Positions 22,247 through 49,072 of a stretch of 64,000 bases of DNA are shown here, one piece after another (the stretch's first letter is position 1; the number at the start of each line of letters is the position of its first letter). The stretch comes from a virus. The stretch covers positions 1 to 64,000 of IMG/VR virus record IMGVR_UViG_3300008262_000188; one strand, 5' to 3'. The notes below the pieces were generated by a model. It made no database searches. It was not told the origin of the DNA and saw nothing but the letters and a program-made list of their open reading frames with translations. The translations under genes were made by a program, and so were the position numbers.

Positions 22247-22273
22247 TTTGTTTTTTATTAACTAAATTAATTA

Positions 22274-23041: not shown

Positions 23042-23042
23042 A

Positions 23043-23315
23043 ATGAACAGCAATTTGCCGTGTTTAAATAAAACCTCGTGGAAAGGAGTACATAACGGAA
23101 ATTACGAATTTGACCATTTAATTGAAAAATCAGCACTAGCTGTTCATTTTTTAAGCATGGTTCTTACATTGGCTAAATGTAAATGGATAATAACTACAAC
23201 AACAAATGTTTCTTTGTGGATGGTACTTTATAGAGGAAACACAACAAATGTGCACCAGTGGACTGAAATTGAAAAGGATTCTGAAGGAAAATGGATATAC
23301 GGTTGGAATTGTTAG
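23043..23315 (+). CDS. Short protein, probably C-terminal remnant of a larger enzyme
   Basis: 90 residues, MNSNLPCLNKTSWKGVHNGN then AVHFLSMVLTLAKCKWIITT and LWMVLYRGNTTNVHQW. The last 50 residues have the look of the conserved C-terminus of a longer sugar-related protein (a strand ending in ..TNvSLW..lyRGN..NV), without the catalytic N-terminal part. I therefore suspect a truncated gene attached to the methyltransferase operon. Identity uncertain. Confidence 0.4.
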   Translation: MNSNLPCLNKTSWKGVHNGNYEFDHLIEKSALAVHFLSMVLTLAKCKWIITTTTNVSLWMVLYRGNTTNVHQWTEIEKDSEGKWIYGWNC

Positions 23316-23325
23316 AAGTCCTACC

Positions 23326-23877: not shown

Positions 23878-24049
23878 GTGTTAACTATACTCCATTATCT
23901 ATAAAAGCCGACTGTTTATTATTTTACCGTAATTTAATTTATTTTTTGATTTTTTGTTGCCTTTATAGAGTAAATAACGGACAGTAGTCAAACAATAAAG
24001 CTAATTCAAAACTAGCAAACAATGATCTTTGAAAAGTACAACAAAAATT

Positions 24050-24124
24050 TGGCGAGTAGCTCAGTGGTAGAGCGGTCGGCTGTTAACCGATTGGTCGTAG
24101 GTTCGAATCCTACCTTGCCAGCCA
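24050..24124 (+). tRNA. tRNA-Asn (GTT)
   Basis: Acceptor TGGCGAG/CTTGCCA, anticodon loop CTGTTAA, T loop TTCGAAT, discriminator G, CCA encoded at 24122-24124. Confidence 0.93.
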
Positions 24125-24140
24125 CTTTAACATTGTTTTT

Positions 24141-24226
24141 GCTCGGATGGCGTAATGGCAGCCGCAACGGACTTAAAATCCGTTGGTCTAACGACCGTGA
24201 GGGTTCGAGTCCCTCTCCGAGTACCA
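24141..24226 (+). tRNA. tRNA-Leu (TAA)
   Basis: Class II tRNA: anticodon loop CTTAAAA, long variable arm, T loop TTCGAGT, acceptor GCTCGGA/TCCGAGT, CCA encoded. Confidence 0.92.
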
Positions 24227-24234
24227 CTTTCTAC

Positions 24235-24311
24235 GTTTCCATAGCTCAACTGGATAGAGCAACGCTCTTCTAAAGCGTAGGTTGCTGGTTCGATTCCAGC
24301 TGGGAACGCCA
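24235..24311 (+). tRNA. tRNA-Arg (TCT)
   Basis: Acceptor GTTTCCA/TGGGAAC, anticodon loop CTTCTAA, T loop TTCGATT, CCA encoded. Confidence 0.93.
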
Positions 24312-24320
24312 TTTTATAAT

Positions 24321-24393
<73 letters not shown>

Positions 24394-24401
24394 TTTTTTT
24401 T

Positions 24402-24496
24402 GCAAGGTTAGTATAACTGGATAGTACCGACAGACTTATAATCTGTGTGCCCTAGATGTGGGCCGAGCGTGGGTTCGATTCCCACACCTTGCACCA
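24402..24496 (+). tRNA. Class II tRNA with TAT anticodon (Ile by codon)
   Basis: Acceptor GCAAGGT/ACCTTGC, D stem GTAT/GTAC, anticodon stem ACAGA/TCTGT with loop CTTATAA (anticodon TAT, reads AUA), then a 22-base variable arm containing GCCC/GGGC, T loop TTCGATT, A73, CCA encoded. A long variable arm is normal for Leu, Ser and Tyr, not for Ile. Confidence 0.85.
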
Positions 24497-24520
24497 TTTT
24501 TAAACAAAACAATATTTTGC

Positions 24521-24605
24521 GGGTAGTTCGTATAGCGGCAATTACCGGAGACTGTAAATCTCCTGCCTTCGGGCTTCGCAGGTTCGAGTCCTGCACTACC
24601 CACCA
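24521..24605 (+). tRNA. tRNA-Tyr (GTA)
   Basis: Class II: acceptor GGGTAGT/ACTACCC, anticodon loop CTGTAAA, variable hairpin GCCTTCGGGC, T loop TTCGAGT, CCA encoded. Confidence 0.92.
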
Positions 24606-24655
24606 CTTCAGGAAGATTTGAACTCGATGTACAAATTGTATAAATAAACCAACTT

Positions 24656-24727
24656 CGAGTACGAGGAAGAAAGAAATCCGCCTGGTTTGGGACCAGGAAA
24701 TACTCGGGGCAGTACCGAGGTACTCGA
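24656..24727 (+). tRNA. Degenerate tRNA-Pro-like element (TGG)
   Basis: A complete cloverleaf can be drawn: acceptor CGAGTAC (24656-24662) with GTACTCG (24720-24726), D stem GGA/TCC, anticodon stem CCTGG/CCAGG with loop TTTGGGA (anticodon TGG), T stem CTCGG/CCGAG. C1:G72, A73 and the TGG anticodon are the bacterial proline identity set. But the D loop (AGAAAGAAA) lacks GG and the T loop (GGCAGTA) lacks TTC, so the normal elbow cannot form. No CCA. It sits three bases before tRNA-Gly. Confidence 0.6.
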
Positions 24728-24730
24728 TAT

Positions 24731-24804
24731 GCGGGATTAGTTTAATGGTAAAACAGGAGTTTTCCAAACTTCGGTTGGGAGTTCGATTCTCCCATCCCGC
24801 ACCA
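24731..24804 (+). tRNA. tRNA-Gly (TCC)
   Basis: Acceptor GCGGGAT/ATCCCGC, anticodon loop TTTCCAA, T loop TTCGATT, CCA encoded. Confidence 0.93.
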
Positions 24805-24809
24805 TTTTC

Positions 24810-24883
24810 AGACCTATAGCTCAGTTGGTTAGAGCAGTTCATTGATAATGAACAGGTCGTTGGTTCAAGTCCAACTAGGTCTA
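24810..24883 (+). tRNA. tRNA-Ile (GAT)
   Basis: Acceptor AGACCTA/TAGGTCT, anticodon loop TTGATAA, T loop TTCAAGT, A73, no full CCA. Confidence 0.92.
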
Positions 24884-24894
24884 CATTTATAATA

Positions 24895-24920
24895 GGCGGA
24901 GTTAGCTCAGCGGTAGAGCT
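24895..24920 (+). pseudogene. 5' fragment of a tRNA gene broken by the HNH gene
   Basis: GGCGGAGTTAGCTCAGCGGT and the following AGAGCT form the acceptor 5' strand and a complete D arm of a tRNA, then the sequence stops abruptly. No matching 3' half exists between 24921 and 25526. The tRNA identity is lost with the anticodon. Confidence 0.75.
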
Positions 24921-25468
24921 AATTTTTTAATTCTATATCTTTTATTATAAGATGAACGTTTGGTGTTTTTAATGTTCCGTCCACAAAATGTTTCAGTTTG
25001 TGAGTGACAATTTGGACATAACAATCTTAAATTCTCTAAAAAATTGTTATCAGAATTACCGTCTATGTGATCCAAATGCAAACTTAAACGTTTTCCGTTC
25101 CATTCTGTAATGCCACAGCAAAAGCATTTGTGCTTTGTTTTAAATTCTATTACACGTTTTAATGTCGAGGATTGGTTTATTAGTCCTTGCTCAGCTCTTA
25201 AAAGAGTTTCATTAAGAAATTGAAAATCTCTTTGACATTTATTACTGCAATATGTTCCAGTAGACGCATGACAAGAATACACAAACTCGACTTTACAATT
25301 TTTACAGTTGCTTTTAAATGAGGTTGTATTTTTATACTCTCTTTGCTTGTTATTATATGAAGCTGCACAAGATCGATTACAGAATTTTTTTAAACGCTCT
25401 TCTTTGCATTTGTTTTGAAAAAAAATACTAGTACAATTTTGACAAACTGATTCAATTAGATTAGGCAT
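24902..25468 (-). CDS. HNH homing-type endonuclease with zinc fingers
   Basis: 188 residues. Three Cys clusters in the first ~80 residues (CQNC.., CKNCKVEF, YCSNKCQRDF) are zinc fingers; the HNH core reads CFCCGITEWNGKRLSLHLDH then NFLENLRLLCPNCHSQT (about 115-165). This is the phage-type homing endonuclease layout. Its last six codons and stop (LALPLS) are read from the antisense of the tRNA 5' fragment at 24902-24920, so the gene invaded a tRNA. A CATAAATA box lies six bases before the ATG, suggesting late expression. Confidence 0.85.
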   Translation of the reverse strand: MPNLIESVCQNCTSIFFQNKCKEERLKKFCNRSCAASYNNKQREYKNTTSFKSNCKNCKVEFVYSCHASTGTYCSNKCQRDFQFLNETLLRAEQGLINQSSTLKRVIEFKTKHKCFCCGITEWNGKRLSLHLDHIDGNSDNNFLENLRLLCPNCHSQTETFCGRNIKNTKRSSYNKRYRIKKLALPLS

Positions 25469-25474
25469 GTATAT

Positions 25475-25482
25475 TATTTATG
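25475..25482 (-). promoter_or_regulatory. Late promoter-like CATAAATA
   Basis: Minus-strand box ending six bases before the HNH ATG at 25468. Confidence 0.45.
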
Positions 25483-25526
25483 AGAATAAGACCAAATATT
25501 TCAAAACAAATGGTCTATTTTTCAAA

Positions 25527-25602
25527 GCTCGGGTAACTTAGCGACTAAAGTACCTGCTTTACACGCAGGCTATCGTGGGTTTGAGTCCCACCCCGAGCAC
25601 CA
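25527..25602 (+). tRNA. tRNA-Val (TAC)
   Basis: Acceptor GCTCGGG/CCCGAGC, anticodon loop TTTACAC, T loop TTTGAGT, CCA encoded. Confidence 0.92.
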
Positions 25603-25609
25603 TTTTAAA

Positions 25610-25692
25610 GCTCATGTGGCGAAATTGGCAGCACGCGCCAGACTTAGGATCTGGTTCCGTAAGGAATGTGGGTTCGAGTCCCTCCATGAGCA
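25610..25692 (+). tRNA. tRNA-Leu (TAG)
   Basis: Class II: acceptor GCTCATG/CATGAGC, anticodon loop CTTAGGA, T loop TTCGAGT, A73, no CCA. Confidence 0.92.
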
Positions 25693-25710
25693 TATTTTAA
25701 TTAAATAAAA

Positions 25711-25795
25711 GGAAGGGTGGCAGAGTGGTCTATTGCAGCGGTTTACTAAACCGCCGAGGCGCAAGTCTCCGAGAGTTCGAATCTCTCCTCTTCCG
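25711..25795 (+). tRNA. tRNA-Ser (ACT)
   Basis: Class II: acceptor GGAAGGG/CTCTTCC, G73 as in Ser, anticodon stem GCGGT/ACCGC, loop TTACTAA giving anticodon ACT, T loop TTCGAAT, no CCA. Bacteria normally use GCT here; A34 is unusual. Confidence 0.85.
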
Positions 25796-25801
25796 TTTTT
25801 T

Positions 25802-25876
25802 GCTCCCATAGTGTAGCGGTTAGCACATCTCCCTTTCACGGAGGTAGCAGGGGTTCAAGTCCCCTTGGGAGTGCCA
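25802..25876 (+). tRNA. tRNA-Glu (TTC)
   Basis: Acceptor GCTCCCA/TGGGAGT, anticodon loop CTTTCAC, T loop TTCAAGT, G73, CCA encoded. Confidence 0.92.
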
Positions 25877-25882
25877 TTTTAA

Positions 25883-25955
25883 TACGGAGTAGCACAATTG
25901 GTAGTGCATCAGAATTTGGATCTGAGGGTTATAGGTTCGAGTCCTATCTCCGTAG
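25883..25955 (+). tRNA. tRNA-Gln (TTG)
   Basis: Acceptor TACGGAG/CTCCGTA, anticodon loop ATTTGGA, T loop TTCGAGT, G73, no CCA. The U1-A72 pair is typical of Gln. Confidence 0.92.
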
Positions 25956-25960
25956 TTTTT

Positions 25961-26008
25961 TGTTGTCTTTCAAATAGCTTAATTTAATTATTCGTACAAT
26001 GGGAACAA
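25961..26008 (+). repeat. 48-bp leader repeat, copy 1
   Basis: Identical to 26802-26849. It contains TTGTCT (25963-25968, 36 bases before the ATG) and the first three codons of the sulfotransferase gene. Confidence 0.9.
25963..25968 (+). promoter_or_regulatory. TTGTCT -35-like box
   Basis: 36 bases before the ATG at 25999, just after tRNA-Gln. Confidence 0.5.
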
Positions 26009-26793
26009 AACAGCAAGATAATATAAAACAATTTGCAATATTCTCTTTGCATAGGTCAGGCACGAATCTTTTGACGTGTTTATTGGATAACATTGATCAC
26101 GTTCAATGTTACGACGAAGTATATTGCAGCCAGGATGAGTTGAATCCCAACTATCTTCACACAAAACTTATTATATCTAAACTAGGAATAGAGCAATACA
26201 GTAGATTAGAAGAACAAAAAAAATCTAACCCATTAGCTTTTTGGAATACAATAGTAAGATTGAGTGATAAATCTACTAAAGCTGTAGGATTTAAAATATT
26301 TGCAGGGCACCACGACAAATTTTTAGAGTTTATAGCGAAATCTTCTAACTACGAAAAAATTATATTATTAAGAAATCCTATTGCAAGGTTTATTTCATTT
26401 ACTAGAGCAATCACTACGGGTTTATGGTTGCAAGTAATAGATGACGAACATACAACATTAACAAAGAAACTAATATTTAATCCTGATGAGTTTGAACTTT
26501 TTTTGAAAAAACACAATGAATCCTTTAATTGGTATTTGCATTTAGCTAAACAACAACCACATAAATATTTGATTACAACGTATGAGGACGTTGTAAGTAG
26601 AAAATCAATAAAACTCATTCTCGATAAGTTAACCATCAATTGTCCTCCCAAGTGTAGAATGTTTACAGATTTAGCAAAGCAATCGACTGAGCCAATTGAT
26701 AGTTGTTTTGTAAACTACGAACAAATGAAAGACTATTTAATCTCAAACCATCCGACTCTATTAAATAACCCCGGTTGCCCAGAACTTCCCTAG
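25999..26793 (+). CDS. Sulfotransferase, copy 1
   Basis: 264 residues, PAPS-dependent sulfotransferase fold. IFSLHRSGTNLLTCLLD at about 13-29 is the 5'-phosphosulfate-binding loop, and KIILLRNPIARFISFTRA near 118-135 is the 3'-phosphate-binding motif (R-N-P..R..S). It would transfer sulfate from PAPS to a sugar or other hydroxyl. A second gene with the same leader and a clearly related protein follows, so this is a tandem duplication inside the tRNA array. PAPS must come from the host. Confidence 0.8.
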   Translation: MGTKQQDNIKQFAIFSLHRSGTNLLTCLLDNIDHVQCYDEVYCSQDELNPNYLHTKLIISKLGIEQYSRLEEQKKSNPLAFWNTIVRLSDKSTKAVGFKIFAGHHDKFLEFIAKSSNYEKIILLRNPIARFISFTRAITTGLWLQVIDDEHTTLTKKLIFNPDEFELFLKKHNESFNWYLHLAKQQPHKYLITTYEDVVSRKSIKLILDKLTINCPPKCRMFTDLAKQSTEPIDSCFVNYEQMKDYLISNHPTLLNNPGCPELP

Positions 26794-26801
26794 CTTTTTT
26801 G

Positions 26802-26849
26802 TGTTGTCTTTCAAATAGCTTAATTTAATTATTCGTACAATGGGAACAA
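26802..26849 (+). repeat. 48-bp leader repeat, copy 2
   Basis: Exact second copy of 25961-26008, again covering the promoter-like box and the first codons. Confidence 0.9.
26804..26809 (+). promoter_or_regulatory. TTGTCT -35-like box
   Basis: 36 bases before the ATG at 26840; part of the duplicated leader. Confidence 0.5.
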
Positions 26850-27610
26850 GTCATCAAGATGATATAAAACAATTTGCAATATTTTCTCTGCATAGAACAG
26901 GTTCATCCTTATTGGTAGATATATTAGATCGTATTCCTTCGATTAAATGTTATTATGAATTATACAAACCGGATACAGAATATTCGGATCAGGAATGGAT
27001 AATTCAGCATGGAAGTACACATCAAAATTGGAAAGAACGAAACAAAGCTGAACCTTTAGCTTATTGGAACGAAATAGTAAAGCTGAGTAGTAATTCTAAA
27101 TTTAAAGCTATCGGATTTAAAATATTCTGGGATCAAAATCAAACATTATTAAAGTATATAGCTGATTCACCTAAGTATCAAAAAATTATATTATTAAGGA
27201 ATCCCATTGCGAGGTACATCTCGACGTTGAGAGCTAAAGCTACAGGAAAATGGTTTCAAATTAAGACTGAACCGACCGCAAGAAAACTAGTATTTGATCC
27301 TGACGAGTTTGAACTTTTTTTGAGAGATCATATCTGTGGAGCTCGGTATTATTTGCGAAAAGCAAAAGAATTTCCTGATAAATATTTAAACATAACATAC
27401 GAAGATGTTATTAGTAGAAATTCGATAAAAAACATTTTTGATAGATTAGAAATTAATGATTTTTCTGAGCATAAATTAACCACACAGTATGCAAAGCAAT
27501 TTATCGAACCAATCGACAGTTGTTTTTTAAACTACGACCAAATGAAAGACTATTTAATCTCAAATCATTCATCCTTATTGAATGAACCTGGTTGCCCAAA
27601 ATTTTTCTAA
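26840..27610 (+). CDS. Sulfotransferase, copy 2
   Basis: 256 residues, paralogue of the gene before it. IFSLHRTGSSLLVDILD is the 5'-phosphosulfate loop and KIILLRNPIARYISTLRA the 3'-phosphate motif. Both proteins end with nearly the same stretch (NYDQMKDYLISNHSSLLNEP here). The region after the first motif, which usually selects the acceptor, differs most, suggesting different acceptors. Both lie between tRNA genes. Confidence 0.8.
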   Translation: MGTSHQDDIKQFAIFSLHRTGSSLLVDILDRIPSIKCYYELYKPDTEYSDQEWIIQHGSTHQNWKERNKAEPLAYWNEIVKLSSNSKFKAIGFKIFWDQNQTLLKYIADSPKYQKIILLRNPIARYISTLRAKATGKWFQIKTEPTARKLVFDPDEFELFLRDHICGARYYLRKAKEFPDKYLNITYEDVISRNSIKNIFDRLEINDFSEHKLTTQYAKQFIEPIDSCFLNYDQMKDYLISNHSSLLNEPGCPKFF

Positions 27611-27621
27611 TCATTTTGAAG

Positions 27622-27627
27622 TTGTCT
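27622..27627 (+). promoter_or_regulatory. TTGTCT -35-like box
   Basis: 35 bases before the ATG at 27657. Confidence 0.45.
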
Positions 27628-27656
27628 TTTTAAAAAAATCTTTTAATGTACTAAAC

Positions 27657-27794
27657 ATGAAAACACTCATGGCTATTTTGTCGCTAGCAACTGTAATTGC
27701 TCTTTCTTCTTGTACATCTCCCAAAGCTTGCGTAAAAAATTCTTGTAAACCTGCTGATTGCAAAACCGTTTGTAAACCAGTCCGTTCTAACTAA
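27657..27794 (+). CDS. Tiny Cys-rich lipoprotein (45 aa)
   Basis: MKTLMAILSLATVIALSSC is a lipoprotein signal with lipobox ALSSC (lipidated C19). The mature part is only about 27 residues and has four more cysteines in CVKNSCKPADCKTVCKPV. The frame is open further upstream but would overlap the sulfotransferase; ATG 27657 gives the clean signal peptide and a TTGTCT box 35 bases before. Outer-membrane phage lipoproteins often block superinfection; that is inference. Confidence 0.55.
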   Translation: MKTLMAILSLATVIALSSCTSPKACVKNSCKPADCKTVCKPVRSN

Positions 27795-27805
27795 ATAATT
27801 TTAAT

Positions 27806-27881
27806 CGCGATGGGCTAGGCCAGGTGGTCTGGTGTGTCTCATAAGCACACAAATTGGGTTCGAGTCCCAACGTCGCTACCA
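27806..27881 (+). tRNA. tRNA (CAT), initiator-like Met or Ile2
   Basis: Acceptor CGCGATG/CGTCGCT has a C1.U72 mismatch with six further pairs; D stem CTAG/CTGG, anticodon stem TGTGT/GCACA, loop CTCATAA, T loop TTCGAGT, CCA encoded. The unpaired 1:72 position recalls initiator tRNA, but the three G:C pairs of initiator anticodon stems are absent. Confidence 0.85.
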
Positions 27882-27887
27882 TTTTAA

Positions 27888-27959
27888 GCCGGGTTAGCAC
27901 AGTGGTAGTGCGACGGTTTTGTAAACCGTAGGTCATCGGTTCGACCCCGATACCCGGCT
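27888..27959 (+). tRNA. tRNA-Thr (TGT)
   Basis: Acceptor GCCGGGT/ACCCGGC, anticodon loop TTTGTAA, T loop TTCGACC, discriminator T, no CCA. Last tRNA of the array. Confidence 0.9.
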
Positions 27960-28000
27960 CCCTCGTATAAAATTACAAAGGTTTGATTAAATACTTTATT

Positions 28001-35339: not shown

Positions 35340-35897
35340 ATGGAAAAAATAAACACTGATATACAAGATGCTTTTTTATTAAAGCCGAAAGTGCATAAAG
35401 ACAATAGAGGTTTTTTTTTAGAAGCATGGAATGAAAATACGTTTAAAAGTCTAGGCTTAGAGTTAAAATTTATTCAAGATAACCACAGCCAATCAACAAA
35501 AAATGTTTTGAGAGGTTTGCACTTTCAAATTGGTGATGCTGCACAAGGAAAACTAGTCTGGGTTATGTCAGGTTCCGTGTATGATGTCATAGTTGATTTA
35601 CGAGAAAATTCGAAAACGTTCGGTAAATGGGCTGGGTTTACATTGACGTCAGAAAACCATCTTCGGTTATGGGTCCCTCCCGGATGTGCACATGGGTTTT
35701 TGGTTTTAAGTGATGTTGTAGATGTTTATTACAAAGTTACTAAAACGTATCATCAACCATTATTTGATAGAACATTATTGTGGAATGATAATACATTAAA
35801 TATCAAATGGCCTTTACATGAAGCACCAATTGTTTCATCAAAAGACTTATGTGGATTGCCGTTTCAGCTTTGCGAAAAATATACTGTTAATTTATGA
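35340..35897 (+). CDS. rmlC: dTDP-4-dehydrorhamnose 3,5-epimerase
   Basis: 185-residue cupin. KVHKDNRGFFLEAWNENTFK, FIQDNHSQSTKNVLRGLHFQ (active-site His), GKLVWVMSGSVYDVIVDLRE and WVPPGCAHGFLVLSD are the RmlC landmarks. Converts dTDP-4-keto-6-deoxyglucose to the rhamno isomer. Cotranscribed with rmlA. Its stop overlaps an ATG that begins a fucosyltransferase-like remnant, so another sugar gene once followed. Confidence 0.92.
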   Translation: MEKINTDIQDAFLLKPKVHKDNRGFFLEAWNENTFKSLGLELKFIQDNHSQSTKNVLRGLHFQIGDAAQGKLVWVMSGSVYDVIVDLRENSKTFGKWAGFTLTSENHLRLWVPPGCAHGFLVLSDVVDVYYKVTKTYHQPLFDRTLLWNDNTLNIKWPLHEAPIVSSKDLCGLPFQLCEKYTVNL

Positions 35898-35968
35898 AAA
35901 GTCCTACAATTAGCGTTGTTTTAGCAGGTGGTTTAAGCAATCAACTTGTTCTGTGTTTACTATTTTAA
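35894..35968 (+). pseudogene. Remnant of a GT11 (fucosyltransferase-like) gene
   Basis: The 24-residue peptide SPTISVVLAGGLSNQLVL resembles the start of family 11 glycosyltransferases (..v.l.GGLGNQlfq..). It ends at a TAA, and 35996-36046 holds an open stretch reading FDSSELLFKFCEKYS, which may be the old C-terminus, so an internal deletion is likely. It overlaps the rmlC stop as ATGA. Confidence 0.4.
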
Positions 35969-36077: not shown

Positions 36078-37241
36078 ATGAAAGAACTATTCCATGTAAT
36101 GGCTAAGCCTATAGGCCCTTTGTGTAATATAGGAGAAAAAATGTTTCCGAAAAACGAAACGTTTAAAATGAAAGAAGAACTTTTAGAAGAATATATAAAA
36201 CAGTATATAGATTCTCAGCCAACTAAAGAAGTTATTTTTACCTGGCAAGGTGGAGAGCCTACAATGCTGGGAATTAAATACTTTGAAAAAATTATTGAAA
36301 TGCAACAACAATACGCCAAAGGGAAAATTGTTTCAAACAGCATTCAAACTAACGGTACTCTATTAAACGATGACTGGGGAAATTTTTTAAAGCAACATAA
36401 TTTTTTAGTCGGTCTCAGTATAGATGGTCCTCCGAAACTACACGATGCATACAGAGTAGATAAAAAAGGACTTCCAACATACGAAAAAGTAATAAAAGGA
36501 CTACGTGTATTGCAAAAGCATGAAATTGAATTTAACACTATAACTGTTGTTAATAATATTAATTCAAAAAAACCACTAGAAGTTTATAATTTTTTAAAAA
36601 AAATTGGCTCAAACTTTATACAATTCATTCCTTTAGTTGAACGGCTACCTGATGTTAAAACTAATCAATTAAGTTTTGATCTAGCTTTTCCACCAACAAT
36701 AAACGACGAGAAAAATTTGCCCGTTACCGAGTGGAGCGTTAAACCTACTCAGTATGGAGAATTTTTAATAACGGTTTTCGATGAATGGTATAAAAAAGAC
36801 AAAGGTAAAGTGTTTGTTCAAATTTTTGATGTAACTTTAGGTAATTGGTCTGGACTGCAGCCGAATAGTTTGTGTGTATTTAGTGAAACGTGCGGTAAAG
36901 CAATTGCTTTAGAGCATGATGGCACAGTTTATTCGTGCGATCATTATGTTTACCCGTCATATAAATTAGGAAGTATAACATCATCATCTTTAGGAGATAT
37001 GATTAGCTCAGAACGGCAAAAAAAATTTGGAAACGACAAGCGGGACACCTTACCAAATTATTGTAAACGCTGTGATGTTAGATTTGCCTGTCATGGTGAA
37101 TGTCCCAAGCATCGTTTTTTAAGAGCACCTGGCGGAGAGTACGGTTTAAATTATTTATGCTCTGGTTACAAAAAATTTTTTCATCATATTGCACCAAAAA
37201 TGCAAACGTTAACAAATGAATTATTGCAACCACTCACATAA
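36078..37241 (+). CDS. Anaerobic sulfatase-maturase homologue lacking two radical-SAM cysteines
   Basis: 387 residues, matching anSME (AtsB/ChuR) enzymes along the whole length: FHVMAKPIGPLCN at the start, TWQGGEPTMLGIKYFEKIIE, SIQTNGTLLNDDW, FLVGLSIDGPPKLHDAYRVD, FIQFIPLVER, and the C-terminal SPASM cysteines (CGKAIALEHDGTVYSCDHYV, YCKRCDVRFACHGECPKHRF). Family members oxidise a sulfatase Cys or Ser to formylglycine. Here C16-N-I-G-E-K replaces C-N-x-x-C-x-Y-C-x-Y-L-E-K: about seven residues with the second and third SAM-cluster Cys are gone, in frame. It may be inactive. The sulfatase gene converges on it with seven bases between. Confidence 0.85.
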   Translation: MKELFHVMAKPIGPLCNIGEKMFPKNETFKMKEELLEEYIKQYIDSQPTKEVIFTWQGGEPTMLGIKYFEKIIEMQQQYAKGKIVSNSIQTNGTLLNDDWGNFLKQHNFLVGLSIDGPPKLHDAYRVDKKGLPTYEKVIKGLRVLQKHEIEFNTITVVNNINSKKPLEVYNFLKKIGSNFIQFIPLVERLPDVKTNQLSFDLAFPPTINDEKNLPVTEWSVKPTQYGEFLITVFDEWYKKDKGKVFVQIFDVTLGNWSGLQPNSLCVFSETCGKAIALEHDGTVYSCDHYVYPSYKLGSITSSSLGDMISSERQKKFGNDKRDTLPNYCKRCDVRFACHGECPKHRFLRAPGGEYGLNYLCSGYKKFFHHIAPKMQTLTNELLQPLT

Positions 37242-37248: not shown

Positions 37249-38676
37249 TTAAGGGGTTACTCTTGTGTTTACACTATAATTTAAAAGAGTTCTTAAGCTA
37301 GTCAACTCCTCTATTGTTTGTTTTAAATGGTCTTGGTCTATCAAATTTGTTGTTTCAGAAGAATCTGCTTCTAAATCATATAATGCAATTGGATGGTTAC
37401 CTACCAGTACATCCCCAGCAAATATTAATTTCCAGTTTAAGTAATAAATCGAGCTTGCTCCTCCCCATTCGTTTTTCGTTTCGTTTATACAACAGTGAGC
37501 ATGATTGATTAATAAATGCTTTCTGTTAGGCTCAAGCGAATTTGTTGTAAGAAGAGGAATTAGACTTTTCGCATCCAGCATTTCATCTTCGTTAATCTGT
37601 ACTTCAATAAGATCTAAAAAGGTTGGTAAAATATCCATAGCACAAACTAAATCTTCACACACTTTTCCTTGCAAAAATTTAGAAGGATAATTAACAATCA
37701 AAGGAACTCTCACTCCTCCCTCGTAGATTGTGCTTTTCCCGTCTCTTAAATGCATATTTCCTTTATCGCCACTGACAGCTCCGTGATCCGAACTGAAGCA
37801 TATGACTGTGTTTTCTTCAAGACCTCTCGTTTTTAAAATTTTACGTAATTCTCCTAAAAGCACATCTGTTTCATAAACCATGTCGTCTCGTCTATTAATA
37901 CACGTATTTAATATCTCGTTCCCTCTTATCGTTTGAGGGGGGTCGTGAGGAGAATGTGCTCCATCACAACAAAAATGCATAAAAAACGGTTTTGCCATAT
38001 CGGTTGTATCTAAAAATTTTTCTACTTTAGTTAAGAGAGTCTCTCCAATTTTTGATAATTCAAAATTAGGATCAACATAATCAAGCCAATTTAAAAAATG
38101 CTGTTCATTGCCTCCACCAACACATTTTTTTTGTCTAGCAAATTCTATTGCTTGCTGACCTCTGATTAAGGTTTTAGGGTCGCAAGTTGGAATATTATTT
38201 TCCAAAAAGATTAAAGGAAGCCATTGATGACCACGAGGTATGATAAACGAATAATCAAATCCCCAATTAGATGGACCATCTACCATTGGAGCTGTCCAGT
38301 CTATTTCTCCTGTTTCTGTCTTGTTGTATAATCCTCCTATTCCCGTCTTGCCAAAAAGACCAGTTCGATAACCATTTTGTTGCAAAATATTCGCTAACGT
38401 TTTTTGATTAGGAGTAATAGAAGATGAGACATCAAATCCCCACTCTCCTTTATTGCCTAATCTTTGTCTATTAGGATAATTGCCGGTCAGAAGCGAATAT
38501 CTAGCAGGAGCACACAATGCTGCTGTCGAATGAGCGTTTGTAAAAATTACTCCACCGTTTGCTAAATCTTCTACGTTTTTTGTTTTAATTTTACTGTAAT
38601 TATTGTAACATGAATAATCCCCTATTCCTACATCTTCAGCAATAATAAATAAAAAGTTAATTGGGGATTTTGTCAT
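37249..38676 (-). CDS. Formylglycine-dependent sulfatase
   Basis: 475 residues, alkaline-phosphatase fold. CAPAR at 55-59 is the Cys-type C-x-P/A-x-R signature that is converted to formylglycine; ALCAPARYSLLTGNYPNRQR is textbook. The metal-binding acidic pair near 14-20 (AEDVGIGD) and CFSSDHGAVSGDKGNMHL near 300 (Asp-His) are present. No signal peptide, so it acts inside the cell or on the virion. It removes sulfate from a carbohydrate; substrate unknown. The adjacent maturase homologue makes a functional pair likely. It overlaps the GT8-like gene by 20 bases. Confidence 0.9.
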   Translation of the reverse strand: MTKSPINFLFIIAEDVGIGDYSCYNNYSKIKTKNVEDLANGGVIFTNAHSTAALCAPARYSLLTGNYPNRQRLGNKGEWGFDVSSSITPNQKTLANILQQNGYRTGLFGKTGIGGLYNKTETGEIDWTAPMVDGPSNWGFDYSFIIPRGHQWLPLIFLENNIPTCDPKTLIRGQQAIEFARQKKCVGGGNEQHFLNWLDYVDPNFELSKIGETLLTKVEKFLDTTDMAKPFFMHFCCDGAHSPHDPPQTIRGNEILNTCINRRDDMVYETDVLLGELRKILKTRGLEENTVICFSSDHGAVSGDKGNMHLRDGKSTIYEGGVRVPLIVNYPSKFLQGKVCEDLVCAMDILPTFLDLIEVQINEDEMLDAKSLIPLLTTNSLEPNRKHLLINHAHCCINETKNEWGGASSIYYLNWKLIFAGDVLVGNHPIALYDLEADSSETTNLIDQDHLKQTIEELTSLRTLLNYSVNTRVTP

Positions 38677-39855: not shown

Positions 39856-40710
39856 TTACTTTATATGAGTTAAAAGGCTACAAAAGCTCATTTTGTTCCT
39901 ATCGTAAAAAGCTAGTTCTGTTTGATAAAGCACATTAAACATATCAACCAACTCTTTCGTAAAGAAACTCATAGCATCAAATTTAGTTATTTTTAAAACA
40001 TTTCTTAATTCAGCTACCGTGTAATCACACATACGTTTCTTGCTGCAGTCAAAATCGAAACGATCAGAACAGTTGGTTGCTAATTTCAAACAACAGCTTT
40101 TATAATTCCACGCTTCTGTTAATCTATCTGCTATTTCTTCGAATAATATTTTTTCTCCCGCCATATCATATAACGATCGTAAATTAGCGGGGTCGTGAAT
40201 TAATTTTCCATCAGGCAACCAAAAGTCCGGAAGAAGATAAAAGACCGCATGTGTTTGTTTAATTAGAAGTTCTTCAAAAAACAAAAAGGACTCACCAGTA
40301 GTTATAGGAAAAAATCCATCAAAAATTTCAATCTGCGAGTTCTCCGAAAAAAACCCCACATTGTATATATGCTCTATAAATTCTCTAAAAGTGTTCGTGT
40401 TTCGATTAATTTCAGGAGTAGGTGAATCAATCGCGACATATTTATCTAAATACAATGAAACAATTCGGTGATATGGATTTCTACCAAAAAAGACTATTTT
40501 GTGATTTTTATAATAATCTACATCTTTATAGTTTGGTTGGTTTTTATAAAAAACCTCGTAAATTTGATGTGTAACATCGTCGTTTCCACCATTATCAAAA
40601 AAGCTTCCGGAGCTATCTAAGTGCATTATTATTTCTTTAAGACACGTAGCTCCACATTTTTGTCCCCAAAACACTAAAACTTGTTGTTGAGTTAATTCAT
40701 GACATTTCAT
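39856..40710 (-). CDS. Sulfotransferase-like protein
   Basis: 284 residues. VFWGQKCGATCLKEIIMHLD near residues 12-31 occupies the place of the 5'-phosphosulfate loop (Lys and Ser/Thr present), and IVFFGRNPYHRIVSLYLDKY near 66-85 is a good 3'-phosphate motif (R-N-P-Y-x-R-x-x-S). Similar in its motifs to the protein at 47697. Acceptor probably a glycan. Reads left, nine bases upstream of the GT8-like gene's start. Confidence 0.6.
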   Translation of the reverse strand: MKCHELTQQQVLVFWGQKCGATCLKEIIMHLDSSGSFFDNGGNDDVTHQIYEVFYKNQPNYKDVDYYKNHKIVFFGRNPYHRIVSLYLDKYVAIDSPTPEINRNTNTFREFIEHIYNVGFFSENSQIEIFDGFFPITTGESFLFFEELLIKQTHAVFYLLPDFWLPDGKLIHDPANLRSLYDMAGEKILFEEIADRLTEAWNYKSCCLKLATNCSDRFDFDCSKKRMCDYTVAELRNVLKITKFDAMSFFTKELVDMFNVLYQTELAFYDRNKMSFCSLLTHIK

Positions 40711-41807: not shown

Positions 41808-42602
41808 TTAACAATTATATAAAGAAGTTAAATGTTCAAGCTGAAATAAGCGATCTGATATATTGCCGGTTAAGTACGGATGGTAACAATAACACTCATC
41901 GATTGCCCACTTAGGTGGATTTGTCCACCTTGTTATCAATCCTCTATGAAGACCAACTATCGAAACGTCTCTTATGTTGATATTTTGTGAAGGATGTTTT
42001 TTTGAAGGCTGATCGATTAGAGAAATAGAAGCAACTTTAGAAAAAATCCACTCATTGGTTGCTATTTGATCGTCTATTAGCTTGGACGTATTTTTTATAT
42101 GATTTTGTATTATATTATTAAAAAAATTTTTAGTATTTTCCTTATATTTTATTACAAAAAACCCACAACACAATACAAAACCGTATTTTTCTGCTAGGTG
42201 CTTGGGATATTCGTTTCCAGTTGAATATATTACATCTTGTTCAAAGCAACTTAGTAAAGGTATTATATTTTTAATCCAAAAGCAATCAACGTCGGTATGT
42301 ATTAACGTTTTTTTTGAACTTGTAAAAATAGAGTTAATAATATCTAAACGAATTGCCCAGAATTCTGGTTTGCAAGAGACAACATATTTAAAATAAATGC
42401 ATGGAATGCATAACTTCTCGATTTCTTGTTTTGTTTTTTCATCTAAGCAAACGACAATCAAATTATTTAACTCGTGGGTTTTCCAAAATTTGTAAAATAT
42501 TCTAAATATTTCAATATATTTGAAATCAACGAACGTTATAACAACGACATCTTCTTTAATTTTATTAGTAATGGCTGTTATTTCGTTTGCGCTTATTTTC
42601 AT
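41808..42602 (-). CDS. GT77-like nucleotide-diphospho-sugar transferase
   Basis: 264 residues. The first strand VVVITFVDFKYIEIFRIFYK and the core KTLIHTDVDCFWIKNIIPLL with D-x-D (DVD) fit the GT77/PF03407 group; CGFFVIKYKENTKNFFNNII and DDQIATNEWIF follow in the right order. A sugar is transferred to protein or glycan. It abuts the clpC gene by one shared base, so the two may be co-transcribed. Confidence 0.6.
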   Translation of the reverse strand: MKISANEITAITNKIKEDVVVITFVDFKYIEIFRIFYKFWKTHELNNLIVVCLDEKTKQEIEKLCIPCIYFKYVVSCKPEFWAIRLDIINSIFTSSKKTLIHTDVDCFWIKNIIPLLSCFEQDVIYSTGNEYPKHLAEKYGFVLCCGFFVIKYKENTKNFFNNIIQNHIKNTSKLIDDQIATNEWIFSKVASISLIDQPSKKHPSQNINIRDVSIVGLHRGLITRWTNPPKWAIDECYCYHPYLTGNISDRLFQLEHLTSLYNC

Positions 42603-45109
42603 TAAAAATAATTCTTTTTACGTTGTTTTTTATTTTGATTTTTTAATAGAGTTATATTATTTTTATTGTCAGCCGATACGGTCGCAATTACTGTTTCTTT
42701 GTTCTTTATAGCACCGCTTAAGATTTTTTCGGCTATTGCATTTTCCAAATAAGTTTCAATCGCTCTTCTAATCGGACGAGCGCCATATTCGTTTTTAGAA
42801 CCCTTTTCTGCAATAAATTCTACAGCTAACTCATCAAGAATTAACGTAATTTGTTTGTTTTCTTTTAATCGATTAATTAAACACAAAGCCTCTAATTGAA
42901 CTATTAATTTAATGTTTTCTGTAGTTAAAGATTTAAAAACAACAATGCTATCCATTCGATTTAAAAGTTCTGGCTTAAAAAAAGACCTAACTTCGCTCAT
43001 AGTTTTTTCTTTCATTGTCTCATAATTCGTGTTTGGTTCATTTTTTACTCCAAATCCCAAGTTAGTTTGTTTTGAAGCAAAGGTAGCTCCAACATTTGAA
43101 GTGAGAATTACAATTGTATTTTTAAAATCTATTTTTCTACCAAGCGAATCCGTAACAATTCCTTCTTCGAATATTTGCAATAACAAATGTAGAGCATCAG
43201 GATGAGCTTTTTCTATTTCATCAAATAGAACTACAGAATAAGGATTTTTTCTGACTTTCTCTGTTAATTGTCCTCCTTCTTCATGACCGATATAACCAGG
43301 AGGAGATCCTATTAATCTGGAAACTGAAAATTTTTCCATATATTCGCTCATATCAATTTGAATAAGCGAATCTTTATTGCCAAAAATTAATTCAGCAATA
43401 TTTTTTGCTAAAAATGTTTTACCGACTCCTGTAGGACCTAAAAATAAAAAAGTGCCTATAGGACGTTTTGGATCTTTTAAATCCGCTCTAGCTCTACGAA
43501 TTGCTGTACTCACAGCTTTTATTGCTTCCTCTTGACCGATAATTCGCTTTTCTAGAGTTTGTTCTAACTGTAATAATTTTTCTGCTTCCTTTTCATCGAT
43601 TCTCGACAAAGGGATTCCTGTCCATTTAGATAATACAGTTATAATATCCTCTTTATTCACCGTAACGATATTTTCTTTGTTAGTTTTCTTCCATTTGTTT
43701 AGAGCTTCAGCTAACGATTCAGTAGCTCTACGCTCTTGATCTCTCGTAGCTGCGGCCTTTTCAAACTCCTGATTTTTAATTGCTTCTTGTTTTTTAGCTT
43801 TTAATTCTGTAATAGAATTTTCTAAGGTAGTAAAATCTTGGGGCTTTATTGTGGAGTTAATTCTTGCTCTAGATCCTGCTTCATCGATTAAATCGATTGC
43901 TTTATCTGGCAAAAATCTATCAGAAATATATCTATCCGACAACAGTGATGCTGATTCTAGTGCCTCGTCTGTATATATAACTTTATGATGCTCTTCGTAC
44001 TTATGTTTGATTCCTTTTAAAATCTGAATAGCGTCATTGACGCTCGGAGCCTCAATTTTAACTTGCTGGAACCTTCTTTCCAGCGCAGTATCTTTTTCTA
44101 TATACTTTCTATATTCATTTAACGTAGTTGCTCCAATGATTTGAAGTTCACCTCTACTTAAAGCAGGCTTAAAAATATTAGAAACGTCCATTGACCCTGA
44201 AGCGGATCCTGCTCCTACGATTGTATGTAGCTCGTCTATAAACAAAATAACATTTCCGTTTTTCTTTACTTCATTCATTACAGTTTTCAATCTTTCTTCA
44301 AATTGACCTCTATACATAGTTCCTGCAACCAATAAAGCTAAATCTAATGTAATAACTTGTTTATTTAACAGTAACTCAGGAACATTATTTGATATAATTT
44401 TTTGTGCTAATCCTTCAGCAATAGCTGTTTTGCCAACACCAGCTTCTCCTATTAAAACTGGATTATTTTTTGTTCTTCTGCAAAGAATTTGAATAGTCCT
44501 TTCGATTTCATTTACTCTACCTATAACAGGATCGAGCTTTCCGTTTTTTGCTAATTCTGTTAGATCTTTTCCGTATGTTTTAAGTGCTGTAGATTTTTTT
44601 GATGAGCTTGATTTTTGAAAATTTTCTTGACCAGCTAGTACAGGTTCATTGCTTTGATAGTTCGGATCGATCTCTTTTAGTATTTGCTCTTTTGCTTTTT
44701 CGTAATTAATATTAAACTCTTGCTGTAGAATTGTTGCAGCAGCTCCCTCAGTTTCTTTCAATAATCCTAGCAATAAATGTTCCGTTCCAACATATGTATG
44801 GCCCATTTTTTTAGACTCTTTTTCCGCTAAATGTAAAACCTTCTTAACTCTAGGTGTAATCGGGATATTCTCTTTTTTAGAATTTAGTAGCGAGTTATTA
44901 TTTTCAGAAGAATTATTTTTAATTATCTCGTAAACAATTTCTATAGTTACTCCTAACTCTTGTAATACTTTTAATGCTAATCCTTGACCTAGTTTTAAAA
45001 ATCCTAGCAACAAGTGTTCTGTTCCTATGTAAGTGTGATTTAAATTTTCAGCTTCTTTTCTTGCTAAAGCTAAGGCTTGCTGAGCACGTGGAGTAAAATT
45101 TTGAGACAT
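42602..45109 (-). CDS. clpC: ClpC-type AAA+ unfoldase
   Basis: 835 residues, a full ClpC. Two Clp_N repeats (about 1-75 and 78-150, both with TYVGTEHLLLG-like cores), AAA1 with GEAGVGKTAIAEGLA near 210 and ALERRF near 335, a middle coiled coil with KAKKQEAIKNQEFEKAAATR (the UVR/M-domain type of ClpC, shorter than in ClpB), and AAA2 with GPTGVGKTFLAKNIAE near 550. NLGFG near 660 is the hydrophobic loop that docks onto ClpP, so it can feed a protease. Phages rarely carry this. No clpP is in the window, so host ClpP would be used. Confidence 0.9.
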   Translation of the reverse strand: MSQNFTPRAQQALALARKEAENLNHTYIGTEHLLLGFLKLGQGLALKVLQELGVTIEIVYEIIKNNSSENNNSLLNSKKENIPITPRVKKVLHLAEKESKKMGHTYVGTEHLLLGLLKETEGAAATILQQEFNINYEKAKEQILKEIDPNYQSNEPVLAGQENFQKSSSSKKSTALKTYGKDLTELAKNGKLDPVIGRVNEIERTIQILCRRTKNNPVLIGEAGVGKTAIAEGLAQKIISNNVPELLLNKQVITLDLALLVAGTMYRGQFEERLKTVMNEVKKNGNVILFIDELHTIVGAGSASGSMDVSNIFKPALSRGELQIIGATTLNEYRKYIEKDTALERRFQQVKIEAPSVNDAIQILKGIKHKYEEHHKVIYTDEALESASLLSDRYISDRFLPDKAIDLIDEAGSRARINSTIKPQDFTTLENSITELKAKKQEAIKNQEFEKAAATRDQERRATESLAEALNKWKKTNKENIVTVNKEDIITVLSKWTGIPLSRIDEKEAEKLLQLEQTLEKRIIGQEEAIKAVSTAIRRARADLKDPKRPIGTFLFLGPTGVGKTFLAKNIAELIFGNKDSLIQIDMSEYMEKFSVSRLIGSPPGYIGHEEGGQLTEKVRKNPYSVVLFDEIEKAHPDALHLLLQIFEEGIVTDSLGRKIDFKNTIVILTSNVGATFASKQTNLGFGVKNEPNTNYETMKEKTMSEVRSFFKPELLNRMDSIVVFKSLTTENIKLIVQLEALCLINRLKENKQITLILDELAVEFIAEKGSKNEYGARPIRRAIETYLENAIAEKILSGAIKNKETVIATVSADNKNNITLLKNQNKKQRKKNYF

Positions 45110-45196: not shown

Positions 45197-47059
45197 ATGA
45201 AAAATGTTGATCAAATTGTAAATAAAACGTTAGAGACTTCTGATGTTTATGACGTCGTGTTAAACAACATAATACGACTTAAAGAAGACCAAAAAGAATT
45301 AGAGCAGTTTATAGAAACACAAAGTTCTCAAAAAGAAACTTTAATTTTATGCGGAATCACTGCAAAGCAGTTAAATAAACCAAGCTTAGTAAAATATGTC
45401 TTAAACAAACTATACAAAGACGGCGAACCAACCGAACACTCATTAGATCAAATGTGGGTAGAAGCGGTGAATGAATTACAGCAATGGTTTGCTGAGAATG
45501 AAACAACAACAGAACAAAGTATTATAATAAAAAATCACGTAAAAACTTCTAAAATAGAAGCTTCTTTAATCGTAGCATGCATGGACCGTCACGAACACTT
45601 GATTCAAACTTTACCAACATGGTTTGATATACCTCAAATTAAAGAATATATAATCGTAGATTTTAATTCTAAAATTCCTTTATCCGAACTTTCTTTGATT
45701 AAAGAATGGGCCAAACATCAAAAAATCATTATAGTTAGAGTCGAAGAAGAAAATCACTTCAATTTAGGCAAGGCTTACAATTTGGCAGCAGATTTTGCGT
45801 CGTGTGATAAATTATTAAAAATAGACTGTGATCACTTGTGCGTTGATTCTTCCTGGATTACCAGACTTGATAATGCAGTATACGATAGTTCAGAATGTTA
45901 CTTTATTAGAGGAGATTGGAGATTCGGTCATTCGATGAGCGGATTGCTTTTTTGTGATAAAAAGGACTTTGTTTACTACAGAGAAGATTTAAATGGTTGG
46001 GGATTTGATGATTTAGATTTGAGTAGAAGAATAATAGAAACCAAGCCAAGAATGAAAGAAGTAATCTGGCCAGACGCTAGTCTGTTTATCAAACATTTAC
46101 CTCATAATGACGACGAAAGGACTAAAAACTACGAATTAGCAAATAAATCAAAATCTAATATATCTAACAGACTAATTTGTCATCAGCCTCTTGCATCTGT
46201 TCAAAGAACTCCTTATAAAGTTTTTTATAAAACTTCTGAATTCAATGTTAAGTTTATTCCAAACAAATCTATAGAACATGGAGTTTGCGTTACACTTAAA
46301 GACAACCGTGAGAGATGGAAAAAAATTAATTCGGACATACCTTTTATTCAAGAATTTAGCGCCATTGATACTCGGAAAACTCCCGAATTGTGTCTAGATT
46401 ATAATCTCGTAGTAAGACCTTCTACCATTACTTATTCTATGTATTTTAAAGGAGCAAATGGAGCAGTAGGATGTTATTTAAGCCATTATTTAATTTGGGA
46501 ACAAATTGTACAACAAAAGTTATCACATGTTCTCGTGGTTGAAGATGATGTTGATACTCATTCTTTAAACAAATTTTTAAATCGTATGCCAGTAAATATA
46601 GAGGCATACGAATTTATTCAATTGAATAAAAGGTTTAGCTATGTAAAACCAGAGCATAGAGTAATTTTTCATGGAACTGAAAGTTATATTGTTAGTCTTG
46701 AGGGAGCTAAAAAATTAATTAGAGCAACTCAACAACCTAAGTTTTTAGAGCATGTGTATCACTATGATCCACCAAACGTGAAATTAATAGCAAAACAACA
46801 GAAAATTAAACAACCTTGCAAAGTATACGAACCTAACAGTATTATAGCTCCTGCTGATAAGTTTATATCTATGTGCTGTGATCCAAAAAGCGATCCGGAA
46901 GTGCAATTGAAGTTTTTAAACTACCCGTGCGTAGATATTAATGCTGATTGTGCAGCGTCAGATATTGATGGCGGAATGGGCCATATATGGAAAATGTCTC
47001 CCAGTCAAGTTGAAGCACAAATTAACAAATATCCTCTTTGCTTAGATCATTATTTATGA
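45197..47059 (+). CDS. Fused GT2-type and GT25 glycosyltransferase
   Basis: 620 residues with two catalytic units. N-terminal ~100 helical residues, then a GT2/GT27-like domain (EASLIVACMDRHEHLIQTLP, LLKIDCDHLCVDSSW with D-x-D, WGFDDLDLSRRI). From about 365 a GT25 (LPS galactosyltransferase-type) domain: GVCVTLKDNRERWKKI, AVGCYLSHYLIWEQIV, HVLVVEDDVD, and SYIVSLEGAKKLIRAT. Two sugars could be added in sequence by one protein. First gene of a long rightward operon. Confidence 0.8.
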   Translation: MKNVDQIVNKTLETSDVYDVVLNNIIRLKEDQKELEQFIETQSSQKETLILCGITAKQLNKPSLVKYVLNKLYKDGEPTEHSLDQMWVEAVNELQQWFAENETTTEQSIIIKNHVKTSKIEASLIVACMDRHEHLIQTLPTWFDIPQIKEYIIVDFNSKIPLSELSLIKEWAKHQKIIIVRVEEENHFNLGKAYNLAADFASCDKLLKIDCDHLCVDSSWITRLDNAVYDSSECYFIRGDWRFGHSMSGLLFCDKKDFVYYREDLNGWGFDDLDLSRRIIETKPRMKEVIWPDASLFIKHLPHNDDERTKNYELANKSKSNISNRLICHQPLASVQRTPYKVFYKTSEFNVKFIPNKSIEHGVCVTLKDNRERWKKINSDIPFIQEFSAIDTRKTPELCLDYNLVVRPSTITYSMYFKGANGAVGCYLSHYLIWEQIVQQKLSHVLVVEDDVDTHSLNKFLNRMPVNIEAYEFIQLNKRFSYVKPEHRVIFHGTESYIVSLEGAKKLIRATQQPKFLEHVYHYDPPNVKLIAKQQKIKQPCKVYEPNSIIAPADKFISMCCDPKSDPEVQLKFLNYPCVDINADCAASDIDGGMGHIWKMSPSQVEAQINKYPLCLDHYL

Positions 47060-47700
47060 TAAACTCGACGTTTGTTATAATAATGGGCGTTGGGAGATGT
47101 GGGTCTACGTTTGTTATGAATCAACTTAACAGAGATTGTAATACTACAATTTATGGAGAGGATATGGGTACAACTTTAAGTTTATTAAAAACTATTGATT
47201 GTTTAAATGAATTTTTAACTCATATTTCTAACCACCCTCATATAAAAAAAAGCATAAAAACAGTGGCCGATGCTAAATTGCAAACACAAATAGCTGGAGT
47301 TGACTATTATATTGGTAATGAAATGTACCATAATTGCGATGCATATGAAACGTTAAATTATAAATTAATTAAAACTTTAACTACATATTATAACCAACAA
47401 ATTACAGGATTTAAAGAGATTAGATGGGACATGTATGAAAATTTAAATTTTTTAAATATATTAAATAAATTATATCGCACTGTAAAATACATATATTTAA
47501 AACGCTCTGATAACGAAGTATTAACAAGCTCCATGAAAAATTGGTCAGAGAATGAGGAGTCAATAGCAAAAAGAATTAAAAGCAAAAAAGAAAAAATCGA
47601 AACGTTTTTAAATACACAAACTGATATCAATGTTATTCAAGGCGATATAACAAAAGATTCTTATTTTATTGAGCAAATAAAATCATTTATTAAATCATGA
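47056..47700 (+). CDS. Sulfotransferase family protein
   Basis: From ATG 47056 (ATGA overlap with the gene before): VIIMGVGRCGSTFVMNQLNR at 7-26 is a clear 5'-phosphosulfate loop (G-x-G-R-x-G-S/T). YIYLKRSDNEVLTSSMKNWS near 145 is a divergent 3'-phosphate motif. 214 residues. Acceptor unknown, presumably a glycan from the same operon. Confidence 0.7.
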   Translation: MINSTFVIIMGVGRCGSTFVMNQLNRDCNTTIYGEDMGTTLSLLKTIDCLNEFLTHISNHPHIKKSIKTVADAKLQTQIAGVDYYIGNEMYHNCDAYETLNYKLIKTLTTYYNQQITGFKEIRWDMYENLNFLNILNKLYRTVKYIYLKRSDNEVLTSSMKNWSENEESIAKRIKSKKEKIETFLNTQTDINVIQGDITKDSYFIEQIKSFIKS

Positions 47701-48461
47701 AACTTCATAAATTAATAAAAGGAAATTCTAAAGCTGTTTGCTTATGGTCCGATATTTCCCCTTATCCAGCAGTGTTAGAAATTGTAACTCATTTAGAAAA
47801 TGGAGTAATATTAAACAACAAAAAGGAGCAAAACTACAAAATAAACAATAAGATTTATGATAAATTTTATGCTAAACCTGTAACGAATTGTGACAATTTA
47901 GACGAATTTAAATTAATAATTTTTTGGCGCAATCCTTATTATCGGCTTTTTTCGGAATATCTAGAAAATTACTCTCTGAACGATACTCATTTGGAATTCG
48001 AGCGTTCGTTTTCTTCTTATATTGAACATAAAACTGAAGATTGCACTCAAGAAGAAGTTAATAAAATCAAAGAATGGATTTTAACGCATTTTGAAAAGAA
48101 AGTTAGTAGTCTTAATACATTTGTTGCTTTGCTTCCGAACCGTATTTCGTCTACGTTAAGCTTATTTTATGACACTTCTGTCGTCGAACGTATATATAAA
48201 TTTATTTGGAGAAAGCAGTATTATGATAAGATCAAACATTTACACAAAAAAACAAACAATATATTCAATAACATTTATAGGATTGAAAACAATGCAGATA
48301 AAAATCAAATCAAACAAATTTCTGCTATAGATATTCATAAAAGTTATAAATATCCAAATATTCGAACTGTGTTTTCCGATGCAACATTAACAAAAATAGA
48401 TTTTTTAATTAAAAACGAACTCGAGTTTTTTAGAAATATTGAAATCAACTTTGATTTATGA
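47697..48461 (+). CDS. Sulfotransferase-like protein
   Basis: 254 residues. LIIFWRNPYYRLFSEYLENY near 74-93 is the 3'-phosphate type motif R-N-P-Y-x-R; the 5' loop is weak (CLWSDISPYPAVLEIVTHLE). It resembles the protein at 39856 in layout. Overlaps both neighbours by four bases, so strictly coupled with them. May be inactive as a sulfotransferase or use an unusual donor loop. Confidence 0.5.
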   Translation: MKLHKLIKGNSKAVCLWSDISPYPAVLEIVTHLENGVILNNKKEQNYKINNKIYDKFYAKPVTNCDNLDEFKLIIFWRNPYYRLFSEYLENYSLNDTHLEFERSFSSYIEHKTEDCTQEEVNKIKEWILTHFEKKVSSLNTFVALLPNRISSTLSLFYDTSVVERIYKFIWRKQYYDKIKHLHKKTNNIFNNIYRIENNADKNQIKQISAIDIHKSYKYPNIRTVFSDATLTKIDFLIKNELEFFRNIEINFDL

Positions 48462-49072
48462 TTTACTGTAAGCCTCTATCTTTCTGCTTCATTGCAGTGC
48501 CAAAAACCGGAACAACTTCTATAGAATCTTTTTTGTCATTGTACTGTGAAGAAAATGACTTTCCACACATTAAAACCAAAGAAACTAATAAACCTTTTGG
48601 TGATGTTAGCGGAAAGCATGCTTCTTTAATGGCAGTAAAACAACATTATAATGTATCAAATATAAATACTATAGGATTTGTAAGAAATCCTTGGGACAAA
48701 GTAGTATCTTGGTATAATTATCTCAAATTACATAAACAAAGTAAATACTCAATCTCAGATAATATTTCTTTTGAAGAATTTATTTTAACTGCTCCGAACT
48801 TTGTGTTTACCGAATCATCAAAGTTTATAACCGATAGCACTGGCAAATTAGACGTCAATTTTCTCGGACGGTTTGAAACAATTAACGAAGACTTTAAGCG
48901 TATATGCAATAATGTCTTAGAAATTGAATGGTCACCATTACTGCAGTTAAATGGGTCAAATAATAAAACACATTATTCGGATTTTTATACTACAAAAACG
49001 AAAAAAATAGTAGAACAATATTTTTTGACAGATATTAAAATGTTTGATTATACATTTGATTTAAACCACTAG
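48458..49072 (+). CDS. Sulfotransferase (family 2 type)
   Basis: 204 residues with textbook motifs: FCFIAVPKTGTTSIESFLSL at 7-26 (5'-phosphosulfate loop P-K-T-G-T-T-S) and TIGFVRNPWDKVVSWYNYLK near 71-90 (3'-phosphate R-N-P-W-x-x-x-x-S). KHASLMAVKQHY contains the likely catalytic His. The best-preserved sulfotransferase in the window and the strongest evidence that glycan sulfation is real here. Confidence 0.85.
   Translation: MIYCKPLSFCFIAVPKTGTTSIESFLSLYCEENDFPHIKTKETNKPFGDVSGKHASLMAVKQHYNVSNINTIGFVRNPWDKVVSWYNYLKLHKQSKYSISDNISFEEFILTAPNFVFTESSKFITDSTGKLDVNFLGRFETINEDFKRICNNVLEIEWSPLLQLNGSNNKTHYSDFYTTKTKKIVEQYFLTDIKMFDYTFDLNH

Follow-up and report, generated by a model that had tools for sequence, protein, structure and literature searches.

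The gene pair and its surroundings

The analysed stretch, termed the window in the following, covers bases 1-64000 out of the 69,126 in the virus record and contains a gene for an anaerobic sulfatase maturase (anSME) convergent to a gene for a Cys-type sulfatase. The features of this locus are:

35894-35968 (+): short ORF (MKSPTISVVLAGGLSNQLVLCLLF / MKSPTISVVLAGGLSNQ), overlapping the rfbC stop in ATGA and ending after 24 codons (direct reading)
36078-37241 (+): maturase ORF of the radical SAM/SPASM type without the radical-SAM cluster loop, 387 aa (TIGR03942, Pfam, Foldseek)
36110-36115 and 36128-36133 (+): two copies of the hexamer TATAGG, the second at the deletion junction (direct reading)
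36123-36137 (+): deletion junction TGT AAT ATA GGA GAA, C16-N-I-G-E; a gap of nine residues that takes in Cys2, Cys3 and the beginning of helix 1 (alignments, homolog survey, AlphaFold pLDDT)
36246-36263 (+): QGGEPT, the SAM-binding GGE motif, retained (G58, G59 and E60 invariant in alignments)
36873-37160 (+): SPASM domain with the acid of CDH and 8/8 auxiliary-cluster Cys retained (invariant alignment columns)
37249-38676 (-): Cys-type sulfatase, 475 aa, LCAPAR at residues 54-59 (Pfam Sulfatase, 6.5e-49)

Phage-type genes of the window, namely a UvsW-type helicase, a primase and an exonuclease, match phage families. A sister phage of 124 kb (G001), found via UvsW (78% identical), has much of the gene order in common, but the maturase, sulfatase and GT8 genes are absent from it. 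The maturase-sulfatase pair is therefore regarded as accessory and as inserted into a region for glycan modification, which contains rfbA, rfbC, several glycosyltransferase genes and several sulfotransferase-like genes. A search of the related phages found via UvsW for maturase, sulfatase and RfbA returned none. The short ORF at 35894-35968 matched nothing in Pfam or PHROG; as a lead only, it may be a truncated beginning of a glycosyltransferase gene that was left behind.

Five sulfotransferase-like genes, some of them below the Pfam cutoff, and the gene 47697-48461, which is without assignment, are distributed over 25999-27610, 39856-40710 and 47050-49072. Together with the sulfatase and the maturase, these five genes make up a load of sulfate-handling genes that is unusual in a phage. 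The window furthermore contains 16 tRNA genes (22156-27962, +), a tmRNA gene (17685-18136, -) whose tag EADYIFNNADEFLIDVEEACALEA ends in ALEA as compared to the common LAA-type, a full-length ClpC-like AAA+ unfoldase of 835 aa (42602-45109, -; 73% identical in the sister phage), and a QueE (5794-6543, -) in which CX3CX2C is replaced by CX3CX11C. QueE of the sister phage shows the same spacing, and CX3CX6C occurs in Cellulophaga phage phiSM.

The sulfatase carries the C-x-P-x-R formylglycine site of the type I (S1) Cys-type enzymes, as LCAPAR. Its nearest solved relatives are the sulfatase 7oze and the S1_15 sulfatase 9bau, and its nearest proteins (about 44-46%) are from large Verrucomicrobiota genomes. 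In the metal-ligand columns it carries E14-D15 and D297-H298, as opposed to DD and DN in 17/17 homologs (D14E, N298H), a deviation that the initial annotation did not mention. Glu and His are both able to bind metal, and Asp-His pairs are found in formylglycine-dependent phosphonate monoester hydrolases. Because of the latter, a changed substrate of the phage sulfatase is considered as likely as decay. A signal peptide is lacking and the protein begins at the catalytic domain, in contrast to the Verrucomicrobiota relatives with their hydrophobic N-terminal leaders; it is possibly a cytoplasmic enzyme with a changed substrate. Absence of the GKWH His was rejected as a sign of a dead sulfatase, since the same GKTGIG is present in homolog L123 and GKQGFG in the nearest homologs L240-L244.

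Loss of the cluster loop in an otherwise conserved maturase

The translation of 36078-37241, MKELFHVMAKPIGPLCNIGEKMFPKNETF, matches TIGR03942 over residues 6-380 with 470.5 bits (curated cutoff 349.45) and contains the Pfam domains Radical_SAM (25-173) and SPASM (273-333). The frame is open up to the stop, and apart from the loop the protein is full length, as already proposed in the initial annotation. The proposed reduction of the CX3CX2C motif to a single Cys was confirmed by translation as well: of the radical SAM motif expected for an anSME, C16 (codon 36123-36125) alone remains in PLC16NIGEKMFP, and the next two Cys are absent. In total, nine Cys are encoded (16, 266, 272, 287, 329, 332, 338, 342, and 361), i.e., C16 and the eight SPASM ligands, and thus there is no spare Cys to rebuild the SAM cluster.

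At the position of the lesion, relatives read CNLDCKYCFYLEKEKLFP and the phage maturase CNIGEKMFP. The alignment gap corresponds to nine residues (27 nt), with 24 nt possible if the ancestor was one residue shorter. Accordingly, Cys1 and GGE are 42 residues apart in the phage maturase versus mostly 51, and at minimum 50, in relatives. Two relatives with an apparent spacing of 42 were discarded as parsing artefacts due to a second GGE string. The earlier estimate of about 21 deleted bases was correct with respect to the unbroken frame, but too low in size. A deletion-causing repeat was sought at the junction, where no long repeat but only the TATAGG hexamer was found. As recurrence of a hexamer within 30 nt is reached by chance at 2.4-2.7% of positions, this repeat may be a weak trace of the mutational event or of template switching.

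Outside the gap, the hallmarks of an anSME are preserved. All eight SPASM Cys (C266, C272, C287, and C342 as well as C329, C332, C338, and C361) are situated in invariant columns, in line with the initial annotation, and the CDx general base D288 is present in C287-D288-H289; QTNG is also kept. In an alignment based on 97 homologs, 64 columns outside the gap reach 95% conservation or more, and the phage maturase has 0 substitutions at them. In the larger set of 155 homologs, 0/50 columns at 99% and 1/73 columns at 95% conservation are substituted, which is similar to the intact homologs with a mean of 0.92 substitutions over the same 73 columns. The AlphaFold2 model displays a normal anSME fold (mean pLDDT 92.2), and among solved structures it comes closest to 4k39/4k37 of anSMEcpe (Foldseek E 2e-33, TM 0.83/0.88). 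Considering runs of three or more residues, pLDDT values below 50 occur solely at residues 16-20. As a control, the intact homolog L039 was modelled with the same rows as input and has 0 residues below 50 and a confident helix at 21-27. On paper, the fold would thus survive with the cluster loop alone gone.

Homologs were gathered without the motif as search pattern, using genome-wide GGE and CPK stretch patterns, the order of the nearest genome, and its class. After removal of duplicates, CNxxCxxC is present in 155/155 distinct homologs from bacteria whose N-terminus can be read, and its reduction in the phage maturase goes well beyond chance. Among these, no homolog sharing the layout of the phage maturase, which together with proven activity would have spoken against the initial annotation by its own account, was encountered. 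Two homologs appear without the motif: in L144 it is cut off by the contig end, and L151 (G154:C90), from a Chthoniobacterales MAG, is frameshifted with an internal TGA and represents an inactivated copy or a MAG error. As to the comparison with other phage copies suggested earlier, another copy related to the phage maturase was not detected in IMG/VR, from which near-identical records may be excluded, either by single-protein and alignment scans or by scanning for a degenerate DNA pattern located directly 5' of the junction; the maturases found in other virus and phage records keep the motif, though one of the IMG/VR scans partly used the motif as pattern and is not independent in this respect.

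Since no Cys is left for the cluster and nothing but its loop is affected, loss of radical-SAM catalysis in the phage maturase is strongly supported.

Origin and age of the deletion

In a tree of 123 proteins, a quick tree with support by SH-aLRT only, the phage maturase is nested in a set of 15 rows (98% SH-aLRT), 10 of which derive from the Chthoniobacterales search, and its end branch measures 0.56 changes per site. By tree and identity, its nearest relatives are the intact maturases L039, L125, L126, and L129 of Chthoniobacterales (Verrucomicrobiota) MAGs with 61-62% identity, all of which, unlike the phage copy, read CNLDCxYCFYLEKE. The nested position on a long branch among these maturases indicates that the deletion is late. 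GC and GC3 of the maturase are equal to those of core phage genes, and so the gene has probably been a long-term resident of the AT-rich phage surroundings.

If the protein had been unconstrained since the deletion, 0 changes at 64 sites would limit the time elapsed to at most about 0.047 changes per site (95%, Poisson), which is under a tenth of the end branch. Therefore, either the deletion is young in comparison with the branch or constraint on the protein persists, and a single sequence fits both.

Dead enzyme, retained protein or artefact

Radical SAM enzymes bind a [4Fe-4S] cluster by CX3CX2C and use this cluster to split SAM. Judged from its residues, the phage maturase is most aptly described as an anSME by descent that is catalytically dead, and not as a functional radical SAM enzyme, and both SAM cleavage and the conversion of Cys/Ser to formylglycine are predicted to be absent. 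With anSMEcpe of Clostridium perfringens (PDB 4k36-4k39) and the TIGR03942 maturases it shares the whole fold, GGE, the eight SPASM Cys, the CDx acid, and the adjoining sulfatase, but it differs from them by the lack of CX3CX2C, with Cys2, Cys3 and the first helix turn deleted. An experimental likeness is given by RumMC2, a SPASM enzyme in which exchange of the three CX3CX2C Cys for Ala left a protein without the radical-SAM cluster that holds two clusters with about 8 Fe (PMC8188230). By analogy to this mutant, the phage maturase should hold two auxiliary clusters without splitting SAM, bearing in mind that the A3 mutant of RumMC2, a sactisynthase, carries engineered point changes and not a deletion.

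We favour, with a probability of roughly 0.6, a recent loss-of-function allele that arose by an in-frame deletion of about 27 nt in a maturase of Verrucomicrobiota origin and left the sulfatase to be matured via host anSME or FGE only. The phage lineage would have acquired the anSME gene, which adjoins the Cys-type sulfatase gene, from a Chthoniobacterales-like relative among the Verrucomicrobiota, and the deletion would then have taken out the loop that bears the second and third Cys of CX3CX2C together with the beginning of helix 1. The remaining protein presumably folds and can hold the two auxiliary clusters, but would neither assemble the SAM cluster nor cleave SAM nor produce formylglycine. 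The phage sulfatase would accordingly be matured only in hosts that provide anSME or FGE and would otherwise stay inactive. Such a dependence on a host maturase is suggested by the intact CAPAR and by the presence of maturases at E <1e-100 in 27/147 genomes of the nearest bacterial order. Probably, an accessory region of the phage has simply undergone gene loss of the ordinary kind. The case would then represent an auxiliary gene pair in the course of being dismantled, with the client enzyme left host-dependent, and thus a small and clean example of auxiliary-gene turnover, which warns against scoring such a gene as an active maturase.

The initial annotation had offered a dead enzyme with a host-dependent sulfatase or, alternatively, a new role of the protein; the loss of radical-SAM chemistry has held up well, and both options fit the sequence. 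Of random 27-nt deletions in the maturase gene, about 4% would affect a Cys of the motif, and inactivating lesions mostly disrupt the frame; for these reasons an in-frame lesion restricted to the loop mildly favours, as a counterpoint to recent loss, that the rest of the protein is kept for some use. It is tempting to think of a selected pseudoenzyme that has given up the radical chemistry and still binds the CxPxR segment of sulfatases via barrel and SPASM domain. It could serve the host maturase as chaperone or recruiter, steering it to the phage sulfatase, or it could be a decoy that blocks the maturation of host sulfatases. Retention of the fold, of the eight SPASM Cys, of Asp288-His289 and of the near-invariant sites would fit such a protein, as would the open frame of the neighbouring sulfatase, but a very recent inactivation gives the same pattern, and the auxiliary-cluster Cys, GGE and Asp288 would be unneeded by a pure adaptor. 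Due to the single instance, with no related phage copy in the IMG/VR scans, and to the requirement for a function nobody has shown, we consider selection for a pseudoenzyme unlikely. A literature search on natural radical-SAM pseudoenzymes and phage sulfatase maturases retrieved no direct precedent from the literature covered. If the deletion were fixed and maintained, the phage maturase would be a natural viral radical-SAM pseudoenzyme handling sulfatase activation without chemistry, of which we found no description.

Lower still ranks the explanation that the dominant phage genome has the loop and that the deletion stems from faulty assembly or sequencing or from a minority haplotype. The lesion is known from one virus record only, and the otherwise intact constraint is what a functional true gene would exhibit. 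However, a clean in-frame gap of 27 nt is atypical of short-read or homopolymer errors, there is no long repeat at the junction that could collapse, and the frame is preserved, which renders an artefact improbable. That the phage maturase is still catalytic, by an altered cluster site of C16 and non-Cys ligands or by other chemistry with the auxiliary clusters, is highly implausible, because the non-canonical Cys spacings tolerated elsewhere in the superfamily, such as CX3CX11C in QueE of this phage and its sister, keep three Cys, while the phage maturase has one near the site and none other outside SPASM, at a junction modelled with very low confidence.

A likewise inactivated maturase of the same family is given by L151 of the Chthoniobacterales MAG G154, with the difference that this copy is bacterial (or a MAG error) and is disrupted by a frameshift and a stop instead of an in-frame loss of the loop.
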